A DNA stretch of 49,646 nucleotides from Bryobacterales bacterium. GTDB taxonomy: Bacteria; Acidobacteriota; Terriglobia; Bryobacterales; Bryobacteraceae. The notes under the pieces are model-generated. The model searched no databases, had not been told where the DNA came from, and was given only the letters and a program-made list of their open reading frames with translations. Below are positions 5,478 to 36,950 of this stretch, in pieces. The stretch is from assembly GCA_003166865.1 (NCBI GenBank), contig PMUP01000098.1, positions 1 to 49,646 on the forward strand. The letters run 5' to 3'. Position 1 is the first letter of the stretch; each line of letters begins with the position of its first letter. The position numbers were made by a program, and so were the translations under genes.

Positions 5478-6839
5478 ATGTTGTTGACCACCGCGGCTTA
5501 TTTCAGCTTTCTCGCCGCCGTTTTCTTCGCCTACTGGCTGGCCGCGCGATACCGTCTGGGCGCGCTCGCCGTCGTCCTCTTCGCCAATTATTTCTTCTAC
5601 GCTCGCTGGGATCTCGCCTACCTCGCCATCATTCCCGCGGCGTCCACGTGCGATTTCTTCATCGGCCAAGCGCTCCACCGCTCCACGCACCCCGGCCTTC
5701 GACGGCTGATCGTGACACTCAGCATCGCGCTCAACATCGGCCTCATCGCGTCGGTGAAGTACTTGCCCGTGCTGCCGTGGGTGCTGCCCCTCGCGCTTTC
5801 CTTCTACGGCTTCCAATCGCTCACCTACACCATCGACATCTACCGCCGCGACGCGCAGCCGGCCGAGAGCTATCTCGCTTACCTCGCCTCCGCTAGCTTC
5901 TTCCCCACCACCGTCGCGGGGCCCATCACACGACTCTCGACACTATGGCCGCAGTGGTCCAAGCGCGAAATGCTCAGCGCGGAGAACGGAGGCAAGGCTC
6001 TCTTTCTCATTGGCCTCGGCCTGGTAAAGAAACTGCTGATCGCCGACTTCCTCGCCGAAAGCCTGGTGAATCGCGTCTTCGATTTGCCCAAACTGTACTC
6101 GGGCGCCGAAGTGCTGGCGGGCGCCTACGGCTATGCGCTCCAGCTTTACTACGATTTCTCCGGCTACACCGACATCGCGCTGGGCTCCGCCTTGCTGCTC
6201 GGCATCACGCTTCCGCCCAACTTCAATCGCCCCTACGCCGCCCAAAACATTTCCGACTTTTGGCGTCGCTGGCACATTTCCTTCTCCAACTGGCTCCGCG
6301 ACTATTTGTATTTCTCGCTGCCAGGCCTGCGCTCGCGCTGGAAAGTCTTCGCGTATTTGAATCTCGTGATCACCATGATGCTCGGCGGCCTTTGGCACGG
6401 GGCTGGTTGGACGTTTCTGGTCTGGGGCGCCTGGCACGGAGTTGGCTTGGCCGTGCATCGCTGGTGGCAAACGCTGCGAGGTAAACGGACGCCAGCACCG
6501 GCCTTGGCGGCTCGCTTCGCCCGCGCGTTCCTCACGTTTCACTTCGTTCTGATCGGATGGATCTTCTTCCGCGCTTCCAGCCTGGACACCGCGCGCGATA
6601 TCCTCTACCAGATCACCTCCGGCACAATCTCTTTTGTGAATATAACCCCGGCGTTCGTGCTAGTGGCTGTCTTTGCCGCTGCCGCACATTACATTCCGAA
6701 GCGCTGGTACGATGGCGGCCTACGGCTCTACTGCCAGTCGCCTTACTACGCGCAGGCTGCGGCCATCGCCGCCGTGGTGGTCGCAATTCGTTATGCCGGA
6801 GGCGCTAGTGCCGCGCCGTTCATCTACTCGCGGTTTTAA
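5478..6839 (+). CDS. MBOAT family membrane O-acyltransferase (AlgI/DltB-like)
   Basis: 453 residues, polytopic, with around ten membrane helices. The MBOAT core is plain: FSGYTDIALG, then NFNRPYAAQNISDFWRRWHIS and NWLRDYLYF, then the two conserved histidines H307 (GLWHGAGW) and H320 (WGAWHGVG). AlgI and DltB use this tunnel fold to pass an acyl group from a cytoplasmic donor to an extracytoplasmic acceptor. I prefer the ATG at 5478; the frame is open to a TTG at 5463. It is the first gene of a tightly packed operon with two SGNH proteins, an ACP and a ketosynthase-III-like protein. The ACP is the likely donor carrier and the SGNH proteins the likely periplasmic acceptor enzymes. Confidence 0.92.
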   Translation: MLLTTAAYFSFLAAVFFAYWLAARYRLGALAVVLFANYFFYARWDLAYLAIIPAASTCDFFIGQALHRSTHPGLRRLIVTLSIALNIGLIASVKYLPVLPWVLPLALSFYGFQSLTYTIDIYRRDAQPAESYLAYLASASFFPTTVAGPITRLSTLWPQWSKREMLSAENGGKALFLIGLGLVKKLLIADFLAESLVNRVFDLPKLYSGAEVLAGAYGYALQLYYDFSGYTDIALGSALLLGITLPPNFNRPYAAQNISDFWRRWHISFSNWLRDYLYFSLPGLRSRWKVFAYLNLVITMMLGGLWHGAGWTFLVWGAWHGVGLAVHRWWQTLRGKRTPAPALAARFARAFLTFHFVLIGWIFFRASSLDTARDILYQITSGTISFVNITPAFVLVAVFAAAAHYIPKRWYDGGLRLYCQSPYYAQAAAIAAVVVAIRYAGGASAAPFIYSRF

Positions 6840-6841
6840 GC

Positions 6842-8203
6842 ATGCTGCCTCCCATGTGGCCGAAGAAAGCCTCCCTCGCGATTGTCACCTTCGGCGTGCT
6901 GGTATTGCTGCTCGAGGTCGCGAAGTTCGCGCGTCCGTTCACAGCAGGCGAGGCTCTCGATTTCCGTCCGCGTAACACGCCCGCGATCGAACCGTTCGCT
7001 CCGATTCCGGCATTCAAAGCGCCGGCCGCCGCATCGAGGCGACCGATTCTGGAGCCCAATCTCATCGACCCGCACGATGCTCTCAGGGCGTTTTACCTCG
7101 CCCTGTGGCGTACCGAGGTAGGAGCGCCGGGCGCAGTCACGCGCGTGCTTCATTATGGCGATTCTCCTGTGACCGCCGATTCCATCACCGCCGACGTGCG
7201 TTCGCTTTTGCAGCAACACTTCGGCGACGCGGGCCACGGCTTCGTTCTCATCGCCAAACCCTGGGCTTGGTACGGCCATCGAGGCGTCGAGGTGCAAGGC
7301 AAAGGCTGGCACATTGCGGCCGCCACGCAAACCCGCGCTCGCGATGGATTCCACGGCCTCGGCGGTGTGAGCTTTGAAGGCGATACGGGCGCTTCTTCGC
7401 GGCTCGTGCTGGCCGAAGATCACGCTCAAATCGAGATTCAGTACCTGCGCCAGCCCGGCGGTGGCGTGCTAACGGTGGAAGCAGCAGGGCAGACGCTCGG
7501 CGACGTGGAAACCGAAGGCCCGGCAAAGGAACCCGGCTTCCAAACCTTTCCATTGCCCGCCGGCGCCCGCACCATCCAGCTCTCCGTCGAGCGCGGCCCC
7601 GTTCGCCTCTTCGGCGTCAGTTTCGAAAGAAACACGCCGGGCGTGATTTACAATAGTCTTGGGCTGAATGGCGGTCAAGTTCAAGTTGTGGTGCGCTATT
7701 TTGACAAGCCCCAGTGGACCGAAGAGTTGCGGCACCAGCATCCGGATCTGGTGGTGATCAATTACGGCACCAACGAAAGTATCTATGCCGACTACATCGA
7801 GCGTTACTATCCCGGCGAGTTGCGCCAAGTGATCGAGCGCGTAAAAGCGGCCGTCCCGGGCGCATCGATTCTGATCATGAGTCCCATGGATCGCGGACAG
7901 CGCGATTCCAATTCCCACATCACCACCGTTCCCGCCCTGCCGCGCCTGGTGGAGATCCAGCGCCAAACGGCGGCGGAAATGAACTGCGCGTTCTTCAACA
8001 CATTTCAAGCTATGGGCGGCGAAGGAACCATGGCGCGCTGGTATGACAGCCAGCCGAGGCTGGTGAGCGCCGATTTCACTCATCCCCTGCCAGCCGGCGC
8101 GCGGAAAGTCGGCGTGTTGCTCGATCAGGCGCTCGAATCCGGCTACCGGCAATTCAAAGCTCGAGAGCAGCAACGGATTGCACAACGGGAGACGCACCAG
8201 TGA
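6842..8203 (+). CDS. Membrane-anchored SGNH/GDSL hydrolase-fold protein, first paralog
   Basis: 453 residues with an N-terminal membrane anchor (about 9-23). The SGNH active site reads as S108 in HYGDSPVTAD, the NYGTNES block (about 303-309) in place of GxND, and D411/H414 in ADFTH near the C-terminus. A conserved middle segment (YLRQPGGGVLTVEA) is shared with the next gene, so the two are paralogs. It starts 2 bp after the MBOAT stop and overlaps the next start by 4 bp (GTGA), implying translational coupling. By analogy with DltD, AlgJ and AlgX, it should sit in the periplasm and complete acyl transfer from the MBOAT protein, or remove acyl groups. Confidence 0.85.
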   Translation: MLPPMWPKKASLAIVTFGVLVLLLEVAKFARPFTAGEALDFRPRNTPAIEPFAPIPAFKAPAAASRRPILEPNLIDPHDALRAFYLALWRTEVGAPGAVTRVLHYGDSPVTADSITADVRSLLQQHFGDAGHGFVLIAKPWAWYGHRGVEVQGKGWHIAAATQTRARDGFHGLGGVSFEGDTGASSRLVLAEDHAQIEIQYLRQPGGGVLTVEAAGQTLGDVETEGPAKEPGFQTFPLPAGARTIQLSVERGPVRLFGVSFERNTPGVIYNSLGLNGGQVQVVVRYFDKPQWTEELRHQHPDLVVINYGTNESIYADYIERYYPGELRQVIERVKAAVPGASILIMSPMDRGQRDSNSHITTVPALPRLVEIQRQTAAEMNCAFFNTFQAMGGEGTMARWYDSQPRLVSADFTHPLPAGARKVGVLLDQALESGYRQFKAREQQRIAQRETHQ

Positions 8204-9498
8204 CGCGGCTGGTGCTTATTTTAGCGGCGCTGCTTTCGGCTGTTCCGGCTCCCGCGGTAACCACTGCCGCAAAAAAGACGGCCAAGAAGAAGCCCCGCAA
8301 AAAACGTGTTCGCGTAGCCGTGGTTCACGTTTCGCCAGTGGTTCGAGGCGCAGCCTTGCGCGCAATTAGCGAACGAACCGCCCGGCCTGCCAGCGTTCTC
8401 GAAGGCGCCGGAGCTCTAGTGCCGTTCTTCGAGCAGCTCTCGCATCCTCCGGAAACCGGATCACTGCACATCCTGCAATATGGCGACTCGCACACCGCTT
8501 CCGATGACTGGGCCAATCAACTGCGCCAGGATTTTCAGGCTAAGTTCGGCGCCGGCGGCCCAGGATACACGCTGCCCGGCCATCCATTTCTTGGCTATCG
8601 CCGATTCGATAGCCATGGCAGCAATTCGCGAGGCTGGTACACCGGCGGCATCGTGACTCGCAAAGACGACGGAATCGACGGGCTCGGCGGAATCAGCCTG
8701 ACTGCGCGATCCGCGGATGAGACGGTGACGCTGACTGTCGAGTGCGAGCAGCTCGAATTGCATTTCCTGCGCCAGCCCGGCGGGGGACAACTCGAATTTT
8801 CCGTGGATGGCGCTTTTGTCGCAACCGTCGATACTGATGGCGAAAGCGCGCCAGGAACCTATCAGTACGCAGCCACGCCCGGCGTGCACCAGTACACGCT
8901 GCGGACCCTCAGCGCCGCGCCTGTGCGGCTGTTCGGCTGGGTCGCTCAGAATCAAGCTGGCGTGACCTACGAGACGCTCGGCATCAACGGCGCACAGGCG
9001 AACCTGATACTCGATTGGAACCCGGACGTCCTCGCGGCGGAGCTGACGAGCCGCGATCCGGCCCTCATCGTTATCGCGTACGGCACGAACGAAGCTCTGA
9101 GCCGCACCTGGACCCCCGAAGGTTACCGCGCCGCGCTCACCGAGATCATACGGCGCCTGCGCGCCACAATTCCGGTCGCGAGTATTCTTCTGGTCGGACC
9201 GCCGGACTGCGAGCATCGCCTGCGCGGCCGCCTGGCGCCATTTCCGCATCTGGATCAGGTGATCGAAATCCAGCGTGAAGTGGCCCGCGATAACGGCTGC
9301 GCCTTTTGGGATTGGCGCGCTGCGATGGGCGGACCGGGATCCGTGCGCCAATGGGTGCAGGCCGGCCTCGGCCAAGGCGACTATACGCATCTTACCGGCG
9401 CTGGATATCGCACCATCGGCGGCACGCTCTTCGAAGATTTAATGGAGCAGTACAACCGCTTTGTCGCGATCCGCGCCGAAGGAACGCATGGACAATAA
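8200..9498 (+). CDS. Exported SGNH/GDSL hydrolase-fold protein, second paralog
   Basis: 432 residues, GTG start overlapping the previous stop by 4 bp. A signal peptide (about 1-22) is followed by a strongly basic Lys/Arg stretch (about 26-40). Catalytic positions: S97 in QYGDSHTAS, the AYGTNEA block (about 291-297) and D394/H397 in GDYTH. It aligns by eye with the preceding protein over nearly its whole length (shared FLRQPGGG, LG.NG.Q and YGTNE segments), pointing to tandem duplication and then specialisation. Loss or gain of an N-terminal anchor separates the two. Substrate unknown; an O-acyl glycan or lipid-linked acceptor is inferred from the MBOAT/ACP context. Confidence 0.84.
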   Translation: MTRLVLILAALLSAVPAPAVTTAAKKTAKKKPRKKRVRVAVVHVSPVVRGAALRAISERTARPASVLEGAGALVPFFEQLSHPPETGSLHILQYGDSHTASDDWANQLRQDFQAKFGAGGPGYTLPGHPFLGYRRFDSHGSNSRGWYTGGIVTRKDDGIDGLGGISLTARSADETVTLTVECEQLELHFLRQPGGGQLEFSVDGAFVATVDTDGESAPGTYQYAATPGVHQYTLRTLSAAPVRLFGWVAQNQAGVTYETLGINGAQANLILDWNPDVLAAELTSRDPALIVIAYGTNEALSRTWTPEGYRAALTEIIRRLRATIPVASILLVGPPDCEHRLRGRLAPFPHLDQVIEIQREVARDNGCAFWDWRAAMGGPGSVRQWVQAGLGQGDYTHLTGAGYRTIGGTLFEDLMEQYNRFVAIRAEGTHGQ

Positions 9499-9721
9499 GG
9501 AGCGCATCCTCGCCATCGTGAGAAAGGTCTCCAATCAAACCGCCGCGCCCGATCCGGATGAATCTCTGTTCGATTCCGGTTTCCTGGACTCTTTCGCGCT
9601 GCCGGACATGGTGAGCGAACTGGAGCGCGAGTTCGGCATCAAGATCCCCGATTCCGATTTGAATCCCCGCAAATTTGAATCCATCGCGAAAATCCAAAGT
9701 TACATCGAGAGCAGGATGTAG
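9488..9721 (+). CDS. Acyl carrier protein
   Basis: 77 residues from the ATG at 9488, which overlaps the end of the preceding gene by 11 bp. The carrier motif DSGFLDSFALPDMV places the phosphopantetheine serine at S35 (DSF instead of the usual DSL), followed by helix II-like SELEREFGIKIPDSDL. Such a short free-standing carrier in an MBOAT/SGNH operon is the same arrangement as DltC. It should carry the acyl group in the cytoplasm and present it to the MBOAT channel. The ketosynthase-like gene starts 3 bp later, so that enzyme probably loads or modifies this carrier. Confidence 0.9.
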   Translation: MDNKERILAIVRKVSNQTAAPDPDESLFDSGFLDSFALPDMVSELEREFGIKIPDSDLNPRKFESIAKIQSYIESRM

Positions 9722-9724
9722 CCG

Positions 9725-10663
9725 GTGGCGGCGATCAAGGCGTTCGGAGCCTACTTGCCGTCGCGTATCGTAACTAACAGCGAACTCGCTGCGCGATTGG
9801 ATTGCGAACCGAATTGGATTCTGGATGTCTCTGGAATTGAGGAGCGGCGCTACGCGGTTCCGGATGAGTCCGTCGCGAGCATGGGCGTGGCCGCGGCCCG
9901 CGAGTGCCTGGATCACGCCGGACTGAAAGCCACCGATGTCGGAATGATTCTGGTGTCCTCGGGTTCATCGGAACGCCGCTTTCCTGGACCCGCATCGGCC
10001 ATCGCACACGCTTTGAACAGGGATGGCATTCCATCAATCGATCTGCCTATCGCCAGCGCGGGCAGCTTGTTCGGCATGGCGATGGCCGCGCCGCTCTCTG
10101 CGATGCACGGCAATGTATTGGTAATCGCGTCCGAAAAAATGTCGGCCATCGCGATGCGCGAGCCCATGGAACGCGGCGTTGCGCCGCTCTTTGGTGATGG
10201 TGCGGGCGCCTGCCTGATCGGTCCCGCGATCGATCCAGGAGCCGGCTCCGCGCGAATTATCGATTACATCCTGCATTCCGACGGCGCTTTCGCCGACGAT
10301 CTGCGCTTGGAGTTCGACGCGCCGCTCGCCATGAACGGCCGCTCGGTCATCCTGCAAGCGTCCCGCAAGGTCCCGTCCGCGATCGGCGAGTTGCTCGACA
10401 AAAATGGACGAACCGCTCAGTCCGTCAAAGTGTTCCTGATGCATCAAGCGAATCAAAACCTGATGGATCGCGTGGCGCGGGCGCTGGACGTGGAGGCGGC
10501 GCGGTTCTATTCCAACATCCGGCGTTACGGGAATACATCATCCGCATCCATGCTCATCGCCGCCGCGGAATGGTGGCGCGATCCAGGGCCTGCCGCCGGC
10601 GACCTGATCTGCTTCGCCGCATTCGGCGCTGGATTTAATTGGGGGGCTTTACTGGCCGGCTAA
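9725..10663 (+). CDS. Ketosynthase III (FabH)-like protein with Ser in place of the catalytic Cys
   Basis: 312 residues, GTG start. The thiolase fold of the FabH family is clear: MAAIKAFGAYLPSRIVTNSE, GIEERRY, FGDGAGACLIG, HQANQNLMDRVA and RRYGNTSSASM. The family triad is Cys-His-Asn. Here His (H240) and Asn (N270) are kept, but the nucleophile position reads IASAGS, with S111 encoded by AGC at 10055-10057. Serine-bearing members such as DpsC are known to act on acyl chains differently from ordinary FabH, so this may be an acyltransferase or thioesterase loading the adjacent ACP, not a condensing enzyme. Last gene of the MBOAT operon; its stop overlaps the convergent stop of the next gene. 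Confidence 0.88.
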   Translation: MAAIKAFGAYLPSRIVTNSELAARLDCEPNWILDVSGIEERRYAVPDESVASMGVAAARECLDHAGLKATDVGMILVSSGSSERRFPGPASAIAHALNRDGIPSIDLPIASAGSLFGMAMAAPLSAMHGNVLVIASEKMSAIAMREPMERGVAPLFGDGAGACLIGPAIDPGAGSARIIDYILHSDGAFADDLRLEFDAPLAMNGRSVILQASRKVPSAIGELLDKNGRTAQSVKVFLMHQANQNLMDRVARALDVEAARFYSNIRRYGNTSSASMLIAAAEWWRDPGPAAGDLICFAAFGAGFNWGALLAG

Positions 10664-11760
10664 TCGCCAGACGCCCGCTGCGGCGCGTGGTACGCAAAAT
10701 AGGACGAGAGCGCGGCGCGCAATGTGCTCCAGCGCGTCCGGAGCAGGGAGATCCCGATCATGAACAGGATCACGATTACCGCTGCGATTCCGCACTGCAC
10801 GTTGGTCAGCGATTCCTTCAGCCATCCGAACCAGCGGCCGTACACCAATTCGATGTGTACCCAATACACCAGCAGCGATGTGGTGCCGAGCTGCCGCACC
10901 CAGCTCCAAGACGCGCCCAGCGGAAACGCCGTCCACACATACGCGAAGCCGATCACCAGCAGGACCACGCCCAGCTTCATCACGATCAGCCCCGGGCTAT
11001 CCAGCCAAAATTCCGACTTGGGGTAGAGCGAGTACGGGAGGTTGGAAAAATACTCGCCGCCGGCAATTAAGCCAAAGCCGAGCAACCCTCCCCACTGCAT
11101 CACGCGATTCATTTGATCGGGTTTGACCAGGCGCAGCACGCTGCCGATGCTGAGTCCGAACGCGATAAACGACGCCCAGGGGAAGAATCCGAAGTATTGA
11201 TAGCTGGGAACGAAGTACGCGGAAATACCGGACGGAAGCCAGCGCCAGTCGATTGCCGAGACCAGCGGCGCGGCCACGGCGATTGCGATACCCAATCCAG
11301 CGCACAAACGCACACGCTGGGCGGTAGTGAAAATGGCCATCACGGACATCAGGCCGATCGCGAATCCCATGCAATTCAGAATGTCGACTTTGAACAAGTC
11401 GGTCCATGGACTTTGGCCGAAGGCGAACGTCCAAAGCTGGAGACGGAACAGGAAAGCCAGCATGAACAGATAGGCGGCGCGCCGCAGCGCGGCTTTCCAA
11501 CGGCCCATTGAGGGCAGTCCTTCGCGTTCGCGGCGGTCCATCAAGAAAGCCAGCGTGATGCCGGTGAGGACCAAGAAGATCGCGGGGCCGATGCCGCCGA
11601 AAAACTGCGAAAGCATATACGGGCCGCCGGCGCGCAAATCCGTTCGATTGAAAGAGTGAAACACGTGGCCCTGCAGCATGACCACGACTGCGGCGCCGCG
11701 CGCCCAATCCAGGAACGTTAAGCGCCCGCTCACGTCGCGATTGTTTGACGGCGTGGTCAT
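10660..11760 (-). CDS. Multi-pass acyltransferase, heparan-alpha-glucosaminide N-acetyltransferase-like (DUF1624 type)
   Basis: 366 residues with about ten hydrophobic helices. The N-terminus RLTFLDWARGAAVVVMLQGHVFHSF has the D-x-x-R-G and membrane histidine pattern of the DUF1624/HGSNAT group, which moves an acetyl group through the membrane onto a sugar or lipid acceptor. The ATG overlaps the stop of the upstream LolA-like gene (ATGA), so the two are translationally coupled. The 3' end overlaps the stop of the convergent ketosynthase gene (CTAA). Its place next to the MBOAT operon suggests a second envelope acylation activity, but it is on the other strand, so a shared pathway is only inference. 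Confidence 0.78.
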   Translation of the reverse strand: MTTPSNNRDVSGRLTFLDWARGAAVVVMLQGHVFHSFNRTDLRAGGPYMLSQFFGGIGPAIFLVLTGITLAFLMDRREREGLPSMGRWKAALRRAAYLFMLAFLFRLQLWTFAFGQSPWTDLFKVDILNCMGFAIGLMSVMAIFTTAQRVRLCAGLGIAIAVAAPLVSAIDWRWLPSGISAYFVPSYQYFGFFPWASFIAFGLSIGSVLRLVKPDQMNRVMQWGGLLGFGLIAGGEYFSNLPYSLYPKSEFWLDSPGLIVMKLGVVLLVIGFAYVWTAFPLGASWSWVRQLGTTSLLVYWVHIELVYGRWFGWLKESLTNVQCGIAAVIVILFMIGISLLRTRWSTLRAALSSYFAYHAPQRASGD

Positions 11761-12474: not shown

Positions 12475-12831
12475 CTACGGCGTGGTGAACGCCATGAACC
12501 CCTTGATTTCTTGTTCGGAATCGACAATTGGCTCCAAACGGACAACATGGTATTTCTTGCCGGTCCGCGCCTGGAGCAAGGTACTGGCCTCGGTGTTCCG
12601 CGCGGCTTCCGGGGTGTTCGAAAGTTGCTCGGCATCCATCCAGAAGACCGTCTCGCCGTGTTCGGCGGGGAGCATCACGATGCTGTTGGCTCGGGGCTGA
12701 TCGCGGAACCACTCCCTGGGCGTTAGAAAAATGAAGGCCACGATGAGCCCGACCATCACGTCGTACTGCCAGCCGGCGCGTGGATAATCCCAAAACAGAA
12801 AGCGCTTCACGCCGCTCATTGGGCTACTCAT
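12475..12831 (-). CDS. Small membrane protein of unknown function
   Basis: 118 residues with one clear membrane helix near the N-terminus (about 26-38, VMVGLIVAFIFLT) after WDYPRAGWQYD, and a soluble C-terminal domain with the ordered pattern MLPAEHGETVFWMDAEQL and KKYHVVRLEPIVDSEQEIKGFMAF. I do not recognise a named family. It precedes the LolA-like gene by 31 bp on the same strand, so it is probably in the same transcript, with the C-terminal domain in the periplasm. An alternative start four codons later (second Met) is possible. Confidence 0.65.
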   Translation of the reverse strand: MSSPMSGVKRFLFWDYPRAGWQYDVMVGLIVAFIFLTPREWFRDQPRANSIVMLPAEHGETVFWMDAEQLSNTPEAARNTEASTLLQARTGKKYHVVRLEPIVDSEQEIKGFMAFTTP

Positions 12832-13614: not shown

Positions 13615-13690
13615 GGGCGGCTAGCTCAGCTGGGAGAGCGCTGCGTTCGCAATGCAGAGGTCGGGGGTTCGATCCCCCCGCCGTCCACCA
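13615..13690 (+). tRNA. tRNA-Ala (anticodon CGC)
   Basis: 76 nt including an encoded CCA. The acceptor stem pairs GGGCGGC with GCCGTCC (one G-U pair). The D arm GCTCAGCTGGGAGAGC, the anticodon stem CTGCG/TGCAG and the T arm GGGGGTTCGATCCCCC are all intact. The seven-base anticodon loop TTCGCAA puts CGC at 34-36, which reads the alanine codon GCG. A single tRNA with no neighbouring tRNA genes. Confidence 0.97.
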
Positions 13691-33200: not shown

Positions 33201-33302
33201 ATCAGTGATTTTACTACCCCAACGCACCGGGACGTTTGCTCCGTCCCCTGGCCAATGCGATATGCTTCAAGTAGCATCGTTGGCCGCGCCGATGGAGACT
33301 CA

Positions 33303-36300
33303 ATGACTGCCCGCGAACAACTTCACGCCTACATCGCGCAACTGGAACAACGTCTGCGCTGGAGCACCGTGCTGCGCGGCGTTGCCATCCTCACTGGCGG
33401 CGCTTTGGTCGCCACGCTGGTGCTGGTCACCATCGCCAACGCCCTCGCCTTTTCGCAGGGGAGCGTCACCGCCGCCCGCTTCGCACTCATCTTGATTTTG
33501 GCCATCGCCGCCTCGGCCGGATTGGCGCTGCCCTTGCGCCGCTTGACCCGCCGCCGGGCCATCGGTACCGCAGAAGCCGCCTTCCCACAATTCCAGCAGC
33601 GCCTCACCACCTTCACTGAACGCGATGGACAAGATCCCTTCATCGAACTTTTGGCCGGAGACACACTCGGCATCGCCCAATCCGCCGAACCCACGCAATT
33701 GGTCACCGACCGCCGCCTCTGGATCTCGCTGGCCACCGGCGTCGGCGCCTTTGTCGTTCTGATCTGGATGATCGCCGCCGGCCCCGGCTTTCTTGGGTTT
33801 GGCGCCTCGCTGCTGTGGACCGGTCCGCATCGCGACAAGCCCGCGCTCTACGATCTGCGCGTCACTCCCGGCGACGCCGTTGTGCGCCGCCACGCCGACC
33901 AGATGGTTTCGGCCCTCCCCACCGGCCTGCGCTCCCCCAGCGTCAAAGTGCATGCCCGTTTTCAGAGCTCTTCCAAGTGGGAAGAGATTGCGATGCAGCC
34001 CAAGGCGTTCGGCAGTTTCGCCGGAGGCTACGAATTTCTCTTTGCCGGTTTGCCCGAGAACGTCGAGTATTATGTCACCGCCGGAGCGATGACCTCGAAG
34101 CACTTCAACATTCGCGTCACCGATTTGCCGACCGTGAAGCAGATTCGCGTCACCTACCATTACCCCACCTGGACCGGCATGCCGTCAGAAGTGGAGGAGC
34201 GCGGCGGCGATCTGCGCGCCGTCATCGGCACCCAGGCCGAACTCCAGGTCTCCACCGATCGCCCTCTTGCGGGCGGCCAGCTCCAACTCGACAACGGACA
34301 GCAGATCCAACTGACCAATTCACAGCAACTCTCCGGAGGCCAGAATAACGTCTATCACGCTGCCGTCAAGATGGATCGCGACGGCGTCTATCACGTCGCT
34401 GGCGTTGAGCAGGGCCAGCCCGTTCGCGTCAGCGAGGATTTTTTCATCGAGGCCCGCAAAGCCAATCCGCCTCAGATTTCGTTGGTGCGTCCCGGCCGGG
34501 GTGACTACCACGCCAGCCCCATCGAAGAGGTGACCGTCGCTGCCAAGGCTACCGGCGAGTACGGCCTCGCGGGCGTCGCACTGCATTATTCGGTCAACGG
34601 CGGCCCCGAGACTACGGTGGATCTTCTCCACAAAAAGGGCGAGAAACAAGCCGACGGCTCAACCACGCTCTCGCTGGAGAAATTCAAGCTCGTTCCGGGC
34701 GATCTGGTTAGCGTCTACGCCACCGCCAAGGATGCCAACGCCGAAGCCCACACCGACATGATGTTCATCCAGGCCGACCCGTTTGAGCGCGAGTTTTCGC
34801 AATCGCAGACTTCGGGCGGCGGAGGTGGTGGAGGCGGTGGTGGTGGCAATCCTTCCGCGGAAATCTCACAGCGGGAGAAGGAGATCATATCCGCCACCTT
34901 CAAGCAACAGGGAGACAAGAACTCGACTCAAAAGCAGGCCACCGATATCGCCAAGCTGCTGGCCCAATCGCAATCCACCCTGCGCGATCAGGCCATCTCC
35001 CTTTCCGAGCGCTTGCAGGCTCGCGAGTTGACCGATGAAGTGAAGGCCATCAGCGATTTCCAGAAGGATATGATCGCCGCCTCCGAGGCCATGGCGCCGG
35101 CCGCGCAACAATTGCAGCGGGAGAAGTGGAAGGACGCCATCCCCAACGAGCAGAAGGCTCTGCAATCCCTGCTGCGCGCCGAAGCCACCTTCCGGCAAAT
35201 TGAGGTTGCGTTTGGAGCGCGCGGGGGTGGAGGCGGCAGCGGGGGCGGCGCGGCACGCGACTTGGCCCAGCTCTTCGAGCTCGAGCTCGACACCGAGAAA
35301 AATCAGTACGAGACCCGGCAAAGCGCGGCTACCAGCGATGAACAAAAGGCGCGAGAAATCGACGACGCGCTCAAGAAGCTCGACGAACTGGCCAAACGCG
35401 AGGAGGATCTAGCGCAGCAGCAGCGCAATGGCACCCAGACTGCCGAGCAAAAATGGCAACAGGAGATGTTAAAGCGCGAGGCGGAGCAGCTCCAGCAACA
35501 GATGGAGCAACAGCTTTCTCAAAGTGGCCGGCAAGGCCAGCAGAGCCAACAGGGGCAGCAGAGCCAACAGGGGCAGCAGAGCAGCCAGAGCGCTTCAGCC
35601 TCCGGGCAAAGCACTTCTGGGCAATCTAGCGGACAGCCGGGCCAACGCGGCAGTCAAGACAAGTCCCCGCAGTCCGCGGATCAAGCCGCCGACAGCCGCC
35701 AACAGTCCGCCCAACAGGCGCTCGACCGCTTGCGCCAAGCCAACCAGGACATGAAGCGCGCCGTCTCGCAGGGCGCCAGCGCCGCTGATTCCCGCCGCGC
35801 CGCCGACCGCTTGCGCGAAGCCACCGATCTGCTTGGCGGCATCGAGCAGCAGGACGCCGCTGGCCGCCTCAACTCGATGGCCCAAACGGCCGACCAATTG
35901 GCGGCCCGTCAAAAGCAGCAAGCCGATCACGTGCGCGACTTGATGACTCAACAGAATGCCGCTCGCGAGTCCGGCAAGCCGCAGACCTACCCGTCCCCTA
36001 AGGAAGTCGACAAAATGGTCAACGATCGCCAACAGGTGAGCGATGACTTGGCGCGCCTCACCCAGCAAATGCGCGGCGCGGCACGCGAGCTCGCGCCCAC
36101 GCAACCGGCGGCTTCCACTAAATTGCGGAGCGCGCTCGATGGCATGGACGGAAACGATCTCGGCACCCGCATGCAACGCAGCTCGGATCAGCTGCGTAGC
36201 GGCCAGTTCTCCGATACCGCCGAAACCAACCTCACCAGCGATCTGCAAAAGCTGGGCCAGCAAGTCGGCGACGCGGCTCGCGCCTTGGGCAGTGCTCAGC

Positions 36301-36950
36301 ACATTTCCGAGGACGCCGCGCTCAACCGCGCCATGGACGATCTATCCCGTCTGCGCGATCAACTCGCTAACACACTGAGCCGCGCGCGTGAGCAAGCGGG
36401 GTCCGGTGCAAGCGGCCAAGCCGGCCAAGCGGGCCAACAGCAGCAGAGTCAGCCCGGTCAACCAAGTCAGCAGCAAGCGCAAAACGGCCCGTTGGGTCCG
36501 GTAGGCAATCCGGCGGATGGCGGGACCAATCGCGATCGCAACGCGAGGGGCGGCTACGATACTGGCAATACGCGCATCTCCGGCCGGGCCGTGGCGCCTC
36601 AACAAGGTCCCAACCCGGTCGATACCCAGCGCCAGATTGACCAGGGACTGAATCTGCTCAACCAGGTTCGTGCCGTAGTGCAGGATAATCCCGAGGGGCG
36701 GCGCGAATTGCAGGCGCTGATCGATCAAATGCGCAATCTGGATCCCAGCCGTTTCCCCGGGAATCCCACGCTAGTCGAGCAGATGCACCAGCAACTCGTC
36801 AGCAGCGTGGACGCGCTGGAACTGCAACTGCGCCGTCAACTCGACGAAAAACGGGGCGGCACCATCCGCAACACCGACCCGGCCAAGGTCCCCGCCGGCT
36901 ATCAGGACTCGGTCGCCGAGTACTACCGCAAACTCTCGAATACACACTGA
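33303..36950 (+). CDS. Giant DUF4175-type membrane protein with Gln- and Gly-rich coiled coil
   Basis: 1215 residues from the ATG at 33303; the frame is open 16 codons upstream. The N-terminus has two membrane helices (about 22-47 and 58-76) and a third near 151-175. A beta-rich extracytoplasmic region follows (about 190-490). Then come an eleven-glycine run (about 505-515), long charged and Gln-rich coiled-coil segments (about 530-1100) with repeats such as QSQQGQ, and a C-terminal SVAEYYRKLSNTH. DUF4175 proteins occur with DUF4159 and MoxR/Bat-type genes; their role is not established. Gln/Gly tracts like these suggest extended, possibly multimeric envelope scaffolding. A strong monocistronic candidate. 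Confidence 0.85.
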   Translation: MTAREQLHAYIAQLEQRLRWSTVLRGVAILTGGALVATLVLVTIANALAFSQGSVTAARFALILILAIAASAGLALPLRRLTRRRAIGTAEAAFPQFQQRLTTFTERDGQDPFIELLAGDTLGIAQSAEPTQLVTDRRLWISLATGVGAFVVLIWMIAAGPGFLGFGASLLWTGPHRDKPALYDLRVTPGDAVVRRHADQMVSALPTGLRSPSVKVHARFQSSSKWEEIAMQPKAFGSFAGGYEFLFAGLPENVEYYVTAGAMTSKHFNIRVTDLPTVKQIRVTYHYPTWTGMPSEVEERGGDLRAVIGTQAELQVSTDRPLAGGQLQLDNGQQIQLTNSQQLSGGQNNVYHAAVKMDRDGVYHVAGVEQGQPVRVSEDFFIEARKANPPQISLVRPGRGDYHASPIEEVTVAAKATGEYGLAGVALHYSVNGGPETTVDLLHKKGEKQADGSTTLSLEKFKLVPGDLVSVYATAKDANAEAHTDMMFIQADPFEREFSQSQTSGGGGGGGGGGGNPSAEISQREKEIISATFKQQGDKNSTQKQATDIAKLLAQSQSTLRDQAISLSERLQARELTDEVKAISDFQKDMIAASEAMAPAAQQLQREKWKDAIPNEQKALQSLLRAEATFRQIEVAFGARGGGGGSGGGAARDLAQLFELELDTEKNQYETRQSAATSDEQKAREIDDALKKLDELAKREEDLAQQQRNGTQTAEQKWQQEMLKREAEQLQQQMEQQLSQSGRQGQQSQQGQQSQQGQQSSQSASASGQSTSGQSSGQPGQRGSQDKSPQSADQAADSRQQSAQQALDRLRQANQDMKRAVSQGASAADSRRAADRLREATDLLGGIEQQDAAGRLNSMAQTADQLAARQKQQADHVRDLMTQQNAARESGKPQTYPSPKEVDKMVNDRQQVSDDLARLTQQMRGAARELAPTQPAASTKLRSALDGMDGNDLGTRMQRSSDQLRSGQFSDTAETNLTSDLQKLGQQVGDAARALGSAQHISEDAALNRAMDDLSRLRDQLANTLSRAREQAGSGASGQAGQAGQQQQSQPGQPSQQQAQNGPLGPVGNPADGGTNRDRNARGGYDTGNTRISGRAVAPQQGPNPVDTQRQIDQGLNLLNQVRAVVQDNPEGRRELQALIDQMRNLDPSRFPGNPTLVEQMHQQLVSSVDALELQLRRQLDEKRGGTIRNTDPAKVPAGYQDSVAEYYRKLSNTH
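35541..35576 (+). repeat. Perfect tandem 18-bp repeat inside the DUF4175 gene
   Basis: CAGAGCCAACAGGGGCAG twice, encoding QSQQGQ twice. In-frame expansion or contraction of this tract would change coiled-coil length without breaking the gene. Confidence 0.92.

Follow-up and report, generated by a model that had tools for sequence, protein, structure and literature searches.

A candidate carrier-fed O-acylation system of the cell envelope in Acidobacteriota, encoded by a five-gene MBOAT-SGNH operon

The DNA analysed here, a stretch of 49,646 nucleotides (the window) from a Bryobacterales bacterium of the Acidobacteriota (GenBank assembly GCA_003166865.1, contig PMUP01000098.1), carries five plus-strand genes at positions 5478-10663 that form one tight operon. 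In this order, they encode an MBOAT acyltransferase, two SGNH proteins (SGNH1 and SGNH2), a DltC-like acyl carrier protein (ACP) and a protein with the fold of ketoacyl-ACP synthase III (KASIII). Read from the sequence, the spacing along the operon is a gap of 2 base pairs (bp), an overlap of 4 bp, an overlap of 11 bp and a gap of 3 bp, and Pfam and NCBIfam models assigned all five genes to their families. The host genome of the window comprises 6.67 Mb in 107 contigs. An original prediction had described five tightly packed MBOAT, SGNH, SGNH, ACP and KASIII genes, with which the coordinates, models and spacing agree. It had also proposed that this MBOAT-SGNH system has its own carrier and, in the position of DltA, a protein with a ketosynthase fold, a proposal that the sequence evidence supports. 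Three traits go beyond that prediction: the KASIII has an active-site Ser and not Cys, both SGNH proteins are of the Ape1 type, and the MBOAT ends in FIYSRF.

Features of the five-gene operon, with positions in the window (aa, amino acids; AF2, AlphaFold2)
Feature	Position	Strand	Basis
MBOAT acyltransferase, DltB fold, 453 aa	5478..6839	+	ATG at 5478
Loop YFSLPGLRS, MBOAT residues 278-286	6309..6335	+	aligns with DltC-docking helix HC of DltB
Putative C-terminal acyl-shuttle hexapeptide F448-I-Y450-S-R-F453 of MBOAT	6819..6836	+	matches FXYXXF of PMC12148441 (excerpt)
SGNH1, 453 aa: N-terminal helix 8-27, linker, Ape1-type SGNH domain	6842..8203	+	
SGNH1 nucleophile Ser108 (GDSP); partners Asp411, His414	7163..7165	+	invariant in alignments of 12 and 30 rows
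SGNH1 beta-rich insert, about residues 149-274	7286..7663	+	place of carbohydrate-binding module insert of Ape1; AF2 model
SGNH2, 432 aa, Ape1-type SGNH domain, SGNH1 paralogue (33.6% identity)	8200..9498	+	
SGNH2 nucleophile Ser97 (GDSH); partners Asp394, His397	8488..8490	+	invariant in 12 rows
DltC-like ACP, 77 aa	9488..9721	+	PF00550 E 5.6e-10; LDSF
ACP Ser35, phosphopantetheine site (LDSF)	9590..9592	+	D34-S35-F36 in 19/19 aligned carriers
KASIII-fold protein, Ser-type, 312 aa, proposed acyl-CoA:ACP loader	9725..10663	+	PF08541 E 6.5e-24; PF08545 E 9.2e-12
KASIII nucleophile position Ser111 (Cys in FabH)	10055..10057	+	Ser in 74/74 main-clade members
KASIII His240	10442..10444	+	74/74
KASIII Asn270	10532..10534	+	74/74

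The MBOAT is recognised by PF03062 above its cut-off (E 2.8e-25) and by the NCBIfam DltB model under that model's cut-off (E 3.1e-51). Its AF2 model (mean predicted local distance difference test, pLDDT, 85.3) is closest to DltB (Z 29.5 and 29.1; next solved MBOAT Z 23.0), and DltB was the sole match of its sequence profile in the PDB at E 0.01. The protein carries extra helices outside its DltB-aligned part, and its C-terminal hexapeptide is of the FXYXXF type, the Tyr of which is acetylated in PatA according to an excerpt of PMC12148441. The motif was found in 89/89 MBOATs examined, namely that of the window, 73 of the 75 from related loci and 15 from other genomes (two partial MBOATs of less than 381 aa, L127 and L132, were left out of the motif counts). 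Because the second MBOAT of the host genome is included in this number, the motif marks the MBOAT-SGNH kind and not the carrier-linked variant. This second MBOAT (L049, G000:C74, 8008-10812) has a weak GDSL neighbour, a C-terminal FVYFQF and the loop YIPLGGNRHG; neither an ACP nor a KASIII relative was called next to it, and we take it to be nearer to the AlgI/AlgJ kind.

A further trait of the operon's MBOAT is the loop SLPGxR, of which P282, G283 and R285 are kept in 74/74 MBOATs longer than 380 aa (window and related loci). Residues 278-285 have an AF2 pLDDT below 50. The loop lies where the docking helix is found in DltB, which DltC contacts through Met36, Val39 and Glu40, as described in the available part of PMC11035591.

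SGNH1 (PF13472 E 2.2e-16; motifs GDS, GTNE and DFTH) begins with a helix that is taken as a membrane anchor. In its AF2 model (mean pLDDT 85.7) the SGNH domain is split by the beta-rich insert, and residues 72-438 match Ape1 of N. meningitidis (Z 40.0 over 342 residues, root-mean-square deviation 2.4) and of C. jejuni (Z 35.3), the next solved structure being at Z 15.1. One of these Ape1 structures is 4k3u. SGNH2 (PF13472 E 5.1e-16; motifs GDS, GTNE and DYTH) yields a profile that matches the Ape1 enzymes at E 5.1e-56 and 4.5e-37. Judged by eye, its N terminus is signal-peptide-like and is followed by a Lys-rich linker; the basic stretch before the SGNH domain (8200-8310) was also seen, again by eye, in L034 and L035.

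At the GxNG site, as aligned to Ape1, both proteins keep Gly (SGNH1 G274 in 30/30 rows, SGNH2 G261 in 12/12 rows). This site is presumably block II. Ape1 is a peptidoglycan O-acetylesterase with an inserted carbohydrate-binding module. In PatB transferases, as stated in excerpts of PMC12148441, Ser or Asn stands where block II otherwise has Gly. Since Gly is kept in both SGNH proteins, the GxNG site does not assign the transferase and hydrolase roles between them. SGNH1 would be the better transferase candidate, because of its anchor helix and because its gene directly follows that of the MBOAT.

For the ACP, the best NCBIfam model is DltC (E 2.6e-11, under the curated DltC cut-offs), and among solved structures it is best matched by D-alanyl carrier proteins, including those solved with DltB (8jf2, 6bug). 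Position 36 is Phe in 19/19 carriers and position 40 is Asp or Glu in 19/19. An acidic residue at position 40 is common among carriers, so this position does not discriminate.

The KASIII-fold protein differs from FabH at its nucleophile, which is Cys in 33/33 FabH-side sequences and in 3/3 of a Cys-type sister group. The three members of this sister group have the Cys-His-Asn triad known from FabH. Of 112 sequences, 76 entered the tree; its Ser rows were in part drawn at random, and its FabH-like rows came from the same and other genomes. In it, 38 Ser-type rows formed one clade (support 100/99) and the three Cys-type rows another (100/96), and these 41 stood together apart from the FabH-like sequences (100/99). 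The residue table at first held 76 Ser rows, and 74 after the distant L191 and L192, which fall in another tree group, had been removed. It excludes short KASIII sequences (up to 280 aa for linked loci, up to 270 aa for others). Among the 64 KASIII rows of the survey of related loci, the active-site letter is missing from one and the His/Asn letters are missing from four. The two rows removed, L191 (G312) and L192 (G303), represent a distant KASIII-like group that likewise has Ser in the active-site column; in the tree it sits on the FabH side, on a long branch.

Two further positions, which we take to be Arg36 and Arg249 in E. coli FabH numbering, are changed as well. The first is Arg in 0/74 Ser-type members against 33/33 on the FabH side; the second is Asn in 73/74 against Arg in 33/33. 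In FabH, both arginines take part in CoA/ACP (coenzyme A/ACP) docking. The Trp32 position of FabH is W in 72/74 Ser-type members, the Phe87 position of the E. coli enzyme is Phe in 72/74, and the residue five after His240 (the spacing of H297 and D302 in DpsC) is Asn in 73/74.

The original prediction depended on the gene order being conserved outside this strain, and our search across Acidobacteriota found that the order is not strain-specific. A profile scan with the SGNH1 alignment gave 265 relatives, the best 80 of which were kept, so that SGNH1 is present in all of these loci by construction. Around these SGNH1 genes, the proteins of the window and relatives of these proteins served as tblastn queries, and neighbouring members of a set were at most 3.5 kb apart. 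By their labels, the loci come from Bryobacterales, Terriglobia or further Acidobacteriota; the only one that does not is L135. This contig is labelled Arcobacter, and its 66% G+C and the grouping of its KASIII with Bryobacterales indicate that it is probably a misbinned Acidobacteriota contig. All five genes occur in operon order in 50/80 loci, and another four have SGNH1-SGNH2-ACP-KASIII without MBOAT, which brings the loci with those four in order to 54/80. L091, in the nearly complete genome of Bryobacterales bacterium F-183 (AP025252.1), carries all five genes. The other sets are MBOAT-SGNH1-SGNH2-KASIII (1), MBOAT-SGNH1-SGNH2 (16), MBOAT-SGNH1 (8) and SGNH1 alone (1); several short ones stop at a contig end (e.g. 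L097, L162 and L156). Where a KASIII lies near SGNH1, the ACP adjoins it in 54/55 loci. With a five-gene order that recurs so often and an ACP so regularly beside the KASIII, the set is not a product of chance.

Among the 25 loci with no nearby KASIII, the genomes of 16 were examined, mostly those whose contig continues; the nine left out (L097, L137, L138, L141, L142, L151, L155, L156 and L162) mostly lie near contig ends. A close KASIII was present elsewhere in the genome in 13/16 (at least 409 bits; next best at most 244 bits). Directly beside the unlinked KASIII, an ACP was found in 16/16 loci, that is, those 13 and the ones in G187, G289 and G100. An SGNH2 relative adjoins the pair in 4/16 (L221, L223, L230 and L233), and few other neighbours are shared. 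These gene neighbourhoods mark ACP and KASIII as a module that is coupled to the MBOAT-SGNH genes. The original prediction would have been undermined by an ACP and KASIII that travel consistently with another pathway, and no single such pathway was seen.

This association also holds in wider genome sets. Among 297 genomes of the phylum, 17 had an SGNH1 match, strong in 12 (E at most 8.8e-82, host genome included) and weak in the five others. The phylum searches scored the best few candidates per genome (up to five for SGNH1, up to seven for KASIII), so misses are possible. KASIII profile scores reached at least 407 bits in 10 genomes, followed by 290.7 bits in G063, where a Cys-type KASIII is linked to a cluster, and by values of at most 270. 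Ser-KASIII was present in 9/12 strong-SGNH1 genomes, and the other three (G075, G063 and G291) have a Cys-type KASIII of the same clade, an assignment that for G075 and G291 is based on tree and residues, not score. Conversely, 9/10 genomes with a Ser-KASIII of at least 407 bits also have a strong SGNH1. The exception is G100, a genome without an SGNH1 match, in which the surroundings of an ACP and a Ser-KASIII (L236, G100:C294) include sugar genes, a weak GDSL protein and a different MBOAT; in this genome the two may supply another type of MBOAT system.

Within the order, 61 of 120 genomes contain SGNH1 (E 1e-60) and 59 contain Ser-KASIII (E 1e-100). Both were found in 58 genomes, SGNH1 only in three, KASIII only in one (G358), and neither in 58. 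By their coordinates, the two genes are close together in 43/58 genomes and apart in 15/58. Four genera (g175, g177, g180 and g192) have members with both and members with neither side by side, which indicates that SGNH1 and Ser-KASIII come and go together.

Taken together, we regard it as probable, with some reserve, that the operon encodes an MBOAT-SGNH system for O-acylation of the cell envelope, one that is fed by its own ACP and works in four steps. First, Ser111 of the Ser-type KASIII would accept a short acyl group from acyl-CoA, and the enzyme would hand this group to the phosphopantetheine arm of the ACP, filling the job of DltA by transacylation. This loader role is suggested by the Ser nucleophile, the adjacent ACP and the missing ligase, and on its residues the Ser-type KASIII would fit a transacylase better than a synthase. 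Second, the acyl-ACP would dock on the cytoplasmic face of the MBOAT and, by analogy with PatA and Dlt, the acyl group would move to Tyr450 of FIYSRF. Third, SGNH1 would receive the acyl group on Ser108 and place it on an extracytoplasmic glycan, most likely peptidoglycan. Fourth, SGNH2, the secreted-looking paralogue, would either remove the acyl group, as Ape1 does, or act as a second transferase.

Some parts of the original prediction are thereby narrowed. It had two SGNH enzymes placing the group, which is now one option only: both are Ape1-like, and one of them may remove it. It had left the acyl group as fatty or short, and a fatty chain is not favoured, given the Phe at the FabH Phe87 position in nearly all Ser-type members. 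We rejected the view that this Phe at the cap position proves the acyl group to be short, the available portion of a review calling the residue a weak guide. For the acceptor it had named a surface glycan or lipid; of these, peptidoglycan is likelier than lipid, which we infer from the Ape1 architecture of the SGNH proteins.

Several observations weigh against this picture or limit its reach. No Ser-KASIII was found in three of the 16 genomes examined for unlinked copies (G303, G309 and G312), nor in three of the 61 SGNH1 genomes of the order (G356, G402 and G409). Several of those 16 genomes recur among the 120. The genomes are related, so that Fisher values on the 297 genomes overstate significance and are indicative only. 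In L092, SGNH2 and KASIII are 78 bp apart (12652-12730), with no ACP found between them. The Ser is not universal, as three diverse family members (L037, L040 and L203) retain Cys, and the score alone does not separate the Cys-type members of G075 and G291 from FabH. The loop SLPGxR is absent from the MBOATs of the distant clusters L036, L037, L038, L039 and L040 and of G100; it thus fails as a mark of every carrier-linked MBOAT and is only a correlate. The Gly at the GxNG site of both SGNH proteins would speak against a transferase role, if the site is block II. In addition, the KASIII triad is Ser-His-Asn, compared with Ser-His-Asp in DpsC (excerpt of PMC12664062).

The flanking genes do not name the acceptor either. 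The commonest other neighbour family occurs at 16/80 loci, and a Pfam scan of ten recurrent neighbour families (metallo-beta-lactamase fold, zinc ribbon, SH3_3, DUF4350/PEP-CTERM, S-adenosylmethionine synthetase, transglutaminase, GntR, enoyl-CoA hydratase, Fe trafficking and VWA) revealed no single theme. The idea of a common flanking pathway was thus dropped, and its failure also counts against our reading. A DPBB lytic transglycosylase gene lies directly upstream in L034 and L036. The SH3_3 neighbour family, of which one representative was scanned, occurs at 10 loci. An SH3_3 protein follows MBOAT-SGNH1-SGNH2 sets without linked ACP-KASIII in L130 (12737-14140), L033 (9031-10470) and L035 (2340-3488). 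The transglycosylase and SH3_3 neighbours, along with the SLT-LysM transglycosylase genes of the weaker clusters L045 and L046 described below, lend modest contextual support to peptidoglycan.

The acceptor could instead be a surface polysaccharide or exopolysaccharide, with the rest of the mechanism unchanged, a variant that we regard as possible though rather doubtful. The neighbourhood of the ACP-KASIII pair in G100, with its nucleotidyl transferase, hexapeptide transferase and DegT genes, points in this direction and away from peptidoglycan, as do single sugar genes near the pair in L222, L226 and L227. Moreover, MBOAT-SGNH pairs also acetylate alginate and cellulose, according to passages of PMC12148441. 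However, Ape1 is a far better match for both SGNH proteins than any other solved SGNH protein, and the lytic transglycosylase or SH3_3 genes beside some clusters likewise favour peptidoglycan.

Alternatively, the KASIII might still be a condensing enzyme that makes a special acyl product on the ACP, either 3-oxoacyl or elongated, for export by the MBOAT. The enzyme has a FabH-like fold with strong similarity to FabH and has kept His and Asn, the three Cys-type members could condense, and an enoyl-CoA hydratase-like gene lies upstream in three loci (L083-L085). Yet the replacement of the Cys nucleophile by Ser throughout the main clade makes condensation unlikely. Neither a ketoreductase nor a malonyl loader was seen among the ten neighbour families scanned, a scan that mostly did not extend to the neighbours of unlinked pairs. 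Furthermore, DpsC shows that a Ser-type KASIII can be a transferase, although the excerpt of PMC12664062 that describes it leaves room for condensation by such enzymes.

It is equally conceivable that the cluster performs ordinary PatA/PatB/Ape1-like peptidoglycan O-acetylation from acetyl-CoA, the ACP-KASIII pair being merely co-transcribed and serving another task. The Ape1-type SGNH proteins and the PatA-type C-terminal motif of the MBOAT would suit such a system. PatA itself has been shown to use acetyl-CoA (PMC12148441, in excerpt), and ACP-KASIII lies far from SGNH1 in the 15 genomes of the order mentioned above. Weaker relatives with an MBOAT and two weakly similar SGNH genes occur in G008 (L045) and G146 (L046), beside SLT-LysM transglycosylase genes. 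No ACP or KASIII was found beside them, nor any KASIII above FabH-level scores in these two genomes. The SGNH arrangement alone therefore requires no carrier, a further point against the carrier-fed reading, and L045 and L046 may be clusters of this phylum that acylate peptidoglycan without a carrier. What renders this alternative improbable for the operon itself is that SGNH1 and KASIII are both present or both absent in 116/120 genomes, also when unlinked, while the exceptional G100 has a different MBOAT near its ACP-KASIII. The DltC type of the ACP argues in the same direction, and so does the peculiar loop that the MBOATs of close relatives have where DltB has its DltC-docking helix.

Finally, a Dlt-like D-alanine system with a stand-alone adenylating ligase elsewhere and the KASIII as a helper is highly improbable: the nearest solved structures to the MBOAT and ACP are DltB and DltC, and the genome (about 96% complete) has many adenylating domains, but its 26 matches to the DltA model are all sub-threshold (best 298.9 bits, cut-off 559.85), the operon has no adenylating enzyme, and the C-terminal shuttle motif sits on the MBOAT itself.

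Other genes of the window seem to stand outside the system. A convergent minus-strand gene for an HGSNAT-like membrane acyltransferase (10660-11760) overlaps the KASIII end by 4 bp, and a cupin gene lies upstream of the operon. Both were considered as parts of the system and rejected, as neither had a tblastn match (E 1e-4) in the 80 related loci. Farther along the plus strand are a tRNA-Ala with anticodon cgc (13615-13690), which mechanical open reading frames overlap, and an open frame of 1231 aa (33255-36950) with no Pfam match at E 0.001.

Compared with known systems, the carrier-fed operon combines parts that are otherwise found separately. AlgI/AlgJ of alginate O-acetylation likewise pair an MBOAT with an SGNH-like protein and are not known to have a dedicated ACP or KASIII. 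With the PatA/PatB/Ape1 OAP cluster of Gram-negative bacteria it shares an MBOAT with a C-terminal FXYXXF and two SGNH proteins in one cluster, and differs by the DltC-like ACP, the Ser-type KASIII and the Ape1 type of both SGNH proteins. The Dlt system (DltA, DltB, DltC, DltD and DltX) also has a DltB-fold MBOAT, a DltC-like carrier and an SGNH partner. Here, in contrast, DltA is absent from the operon and, above cut-off, from the genome, a KASIII-fold protein takes its place, the MBOAT bears its own shuttle motif, and the SGNH proteins are Ape1-type. The KASIII resembles DpsC-like acyltransferases of type II polyketide pathways in its fold, Ser nucleophile and cognate ACP, and is set apart by its Asn-containing triad and by its tie to MBOAT-SGNH genes instead of a polyketide synthase. 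With FabH, the KASIII of fatty acid synthesis, it shares the fold, the triad His and Asn and the Trp32 position, and it is distinguished by the Cys-to-Ser change, the altered Arg36 and Arg249 positions and its separate clade.

MBOAT-SGNH acylation is already known. Among the open-access papers listed by our searches, none described an MBOAT with a PatA-type shuttle that is combined with its own DltC-like carrier and a Ser-type KASIII. According to excerpts of PMC12148441, Dlt is the one MBOAT/SGNH pathway that has a carrier; the others do without, evidently since acyl-CoA is their donor. We therefore infer that the carrier-fed combination with a Ser-type KASIII is new. The dedicated carrier suggests that the acyl group is chosen, being other than acetyl or more tightly controlled. 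More tentatively, the operon could represent a third energising route, in which a Cys-to-Ser KASIII transacylase charges a DltC-like carrier, the carrier serves an MBOAT with its own tyrosine, and the two SGNH proteins put a short acyl group other than acetyl onto the peptidoglycan of Acidobacteriota and take it off again.

If the carrier-fed mechanism is true, a widespread, co-inherited set of a PatA-type MBOAT and a DltC-type carrier would break the rule that only Dlt uses a carrier, and the donor side of MBOAT-SGNH machines would be exchangeable. It would also give the Ser-type KASIII a cellular role outside polyketide pathways. For the Acidobacteriota, a large phylum in soils, it would provide a handle on the modification of the cell wall.

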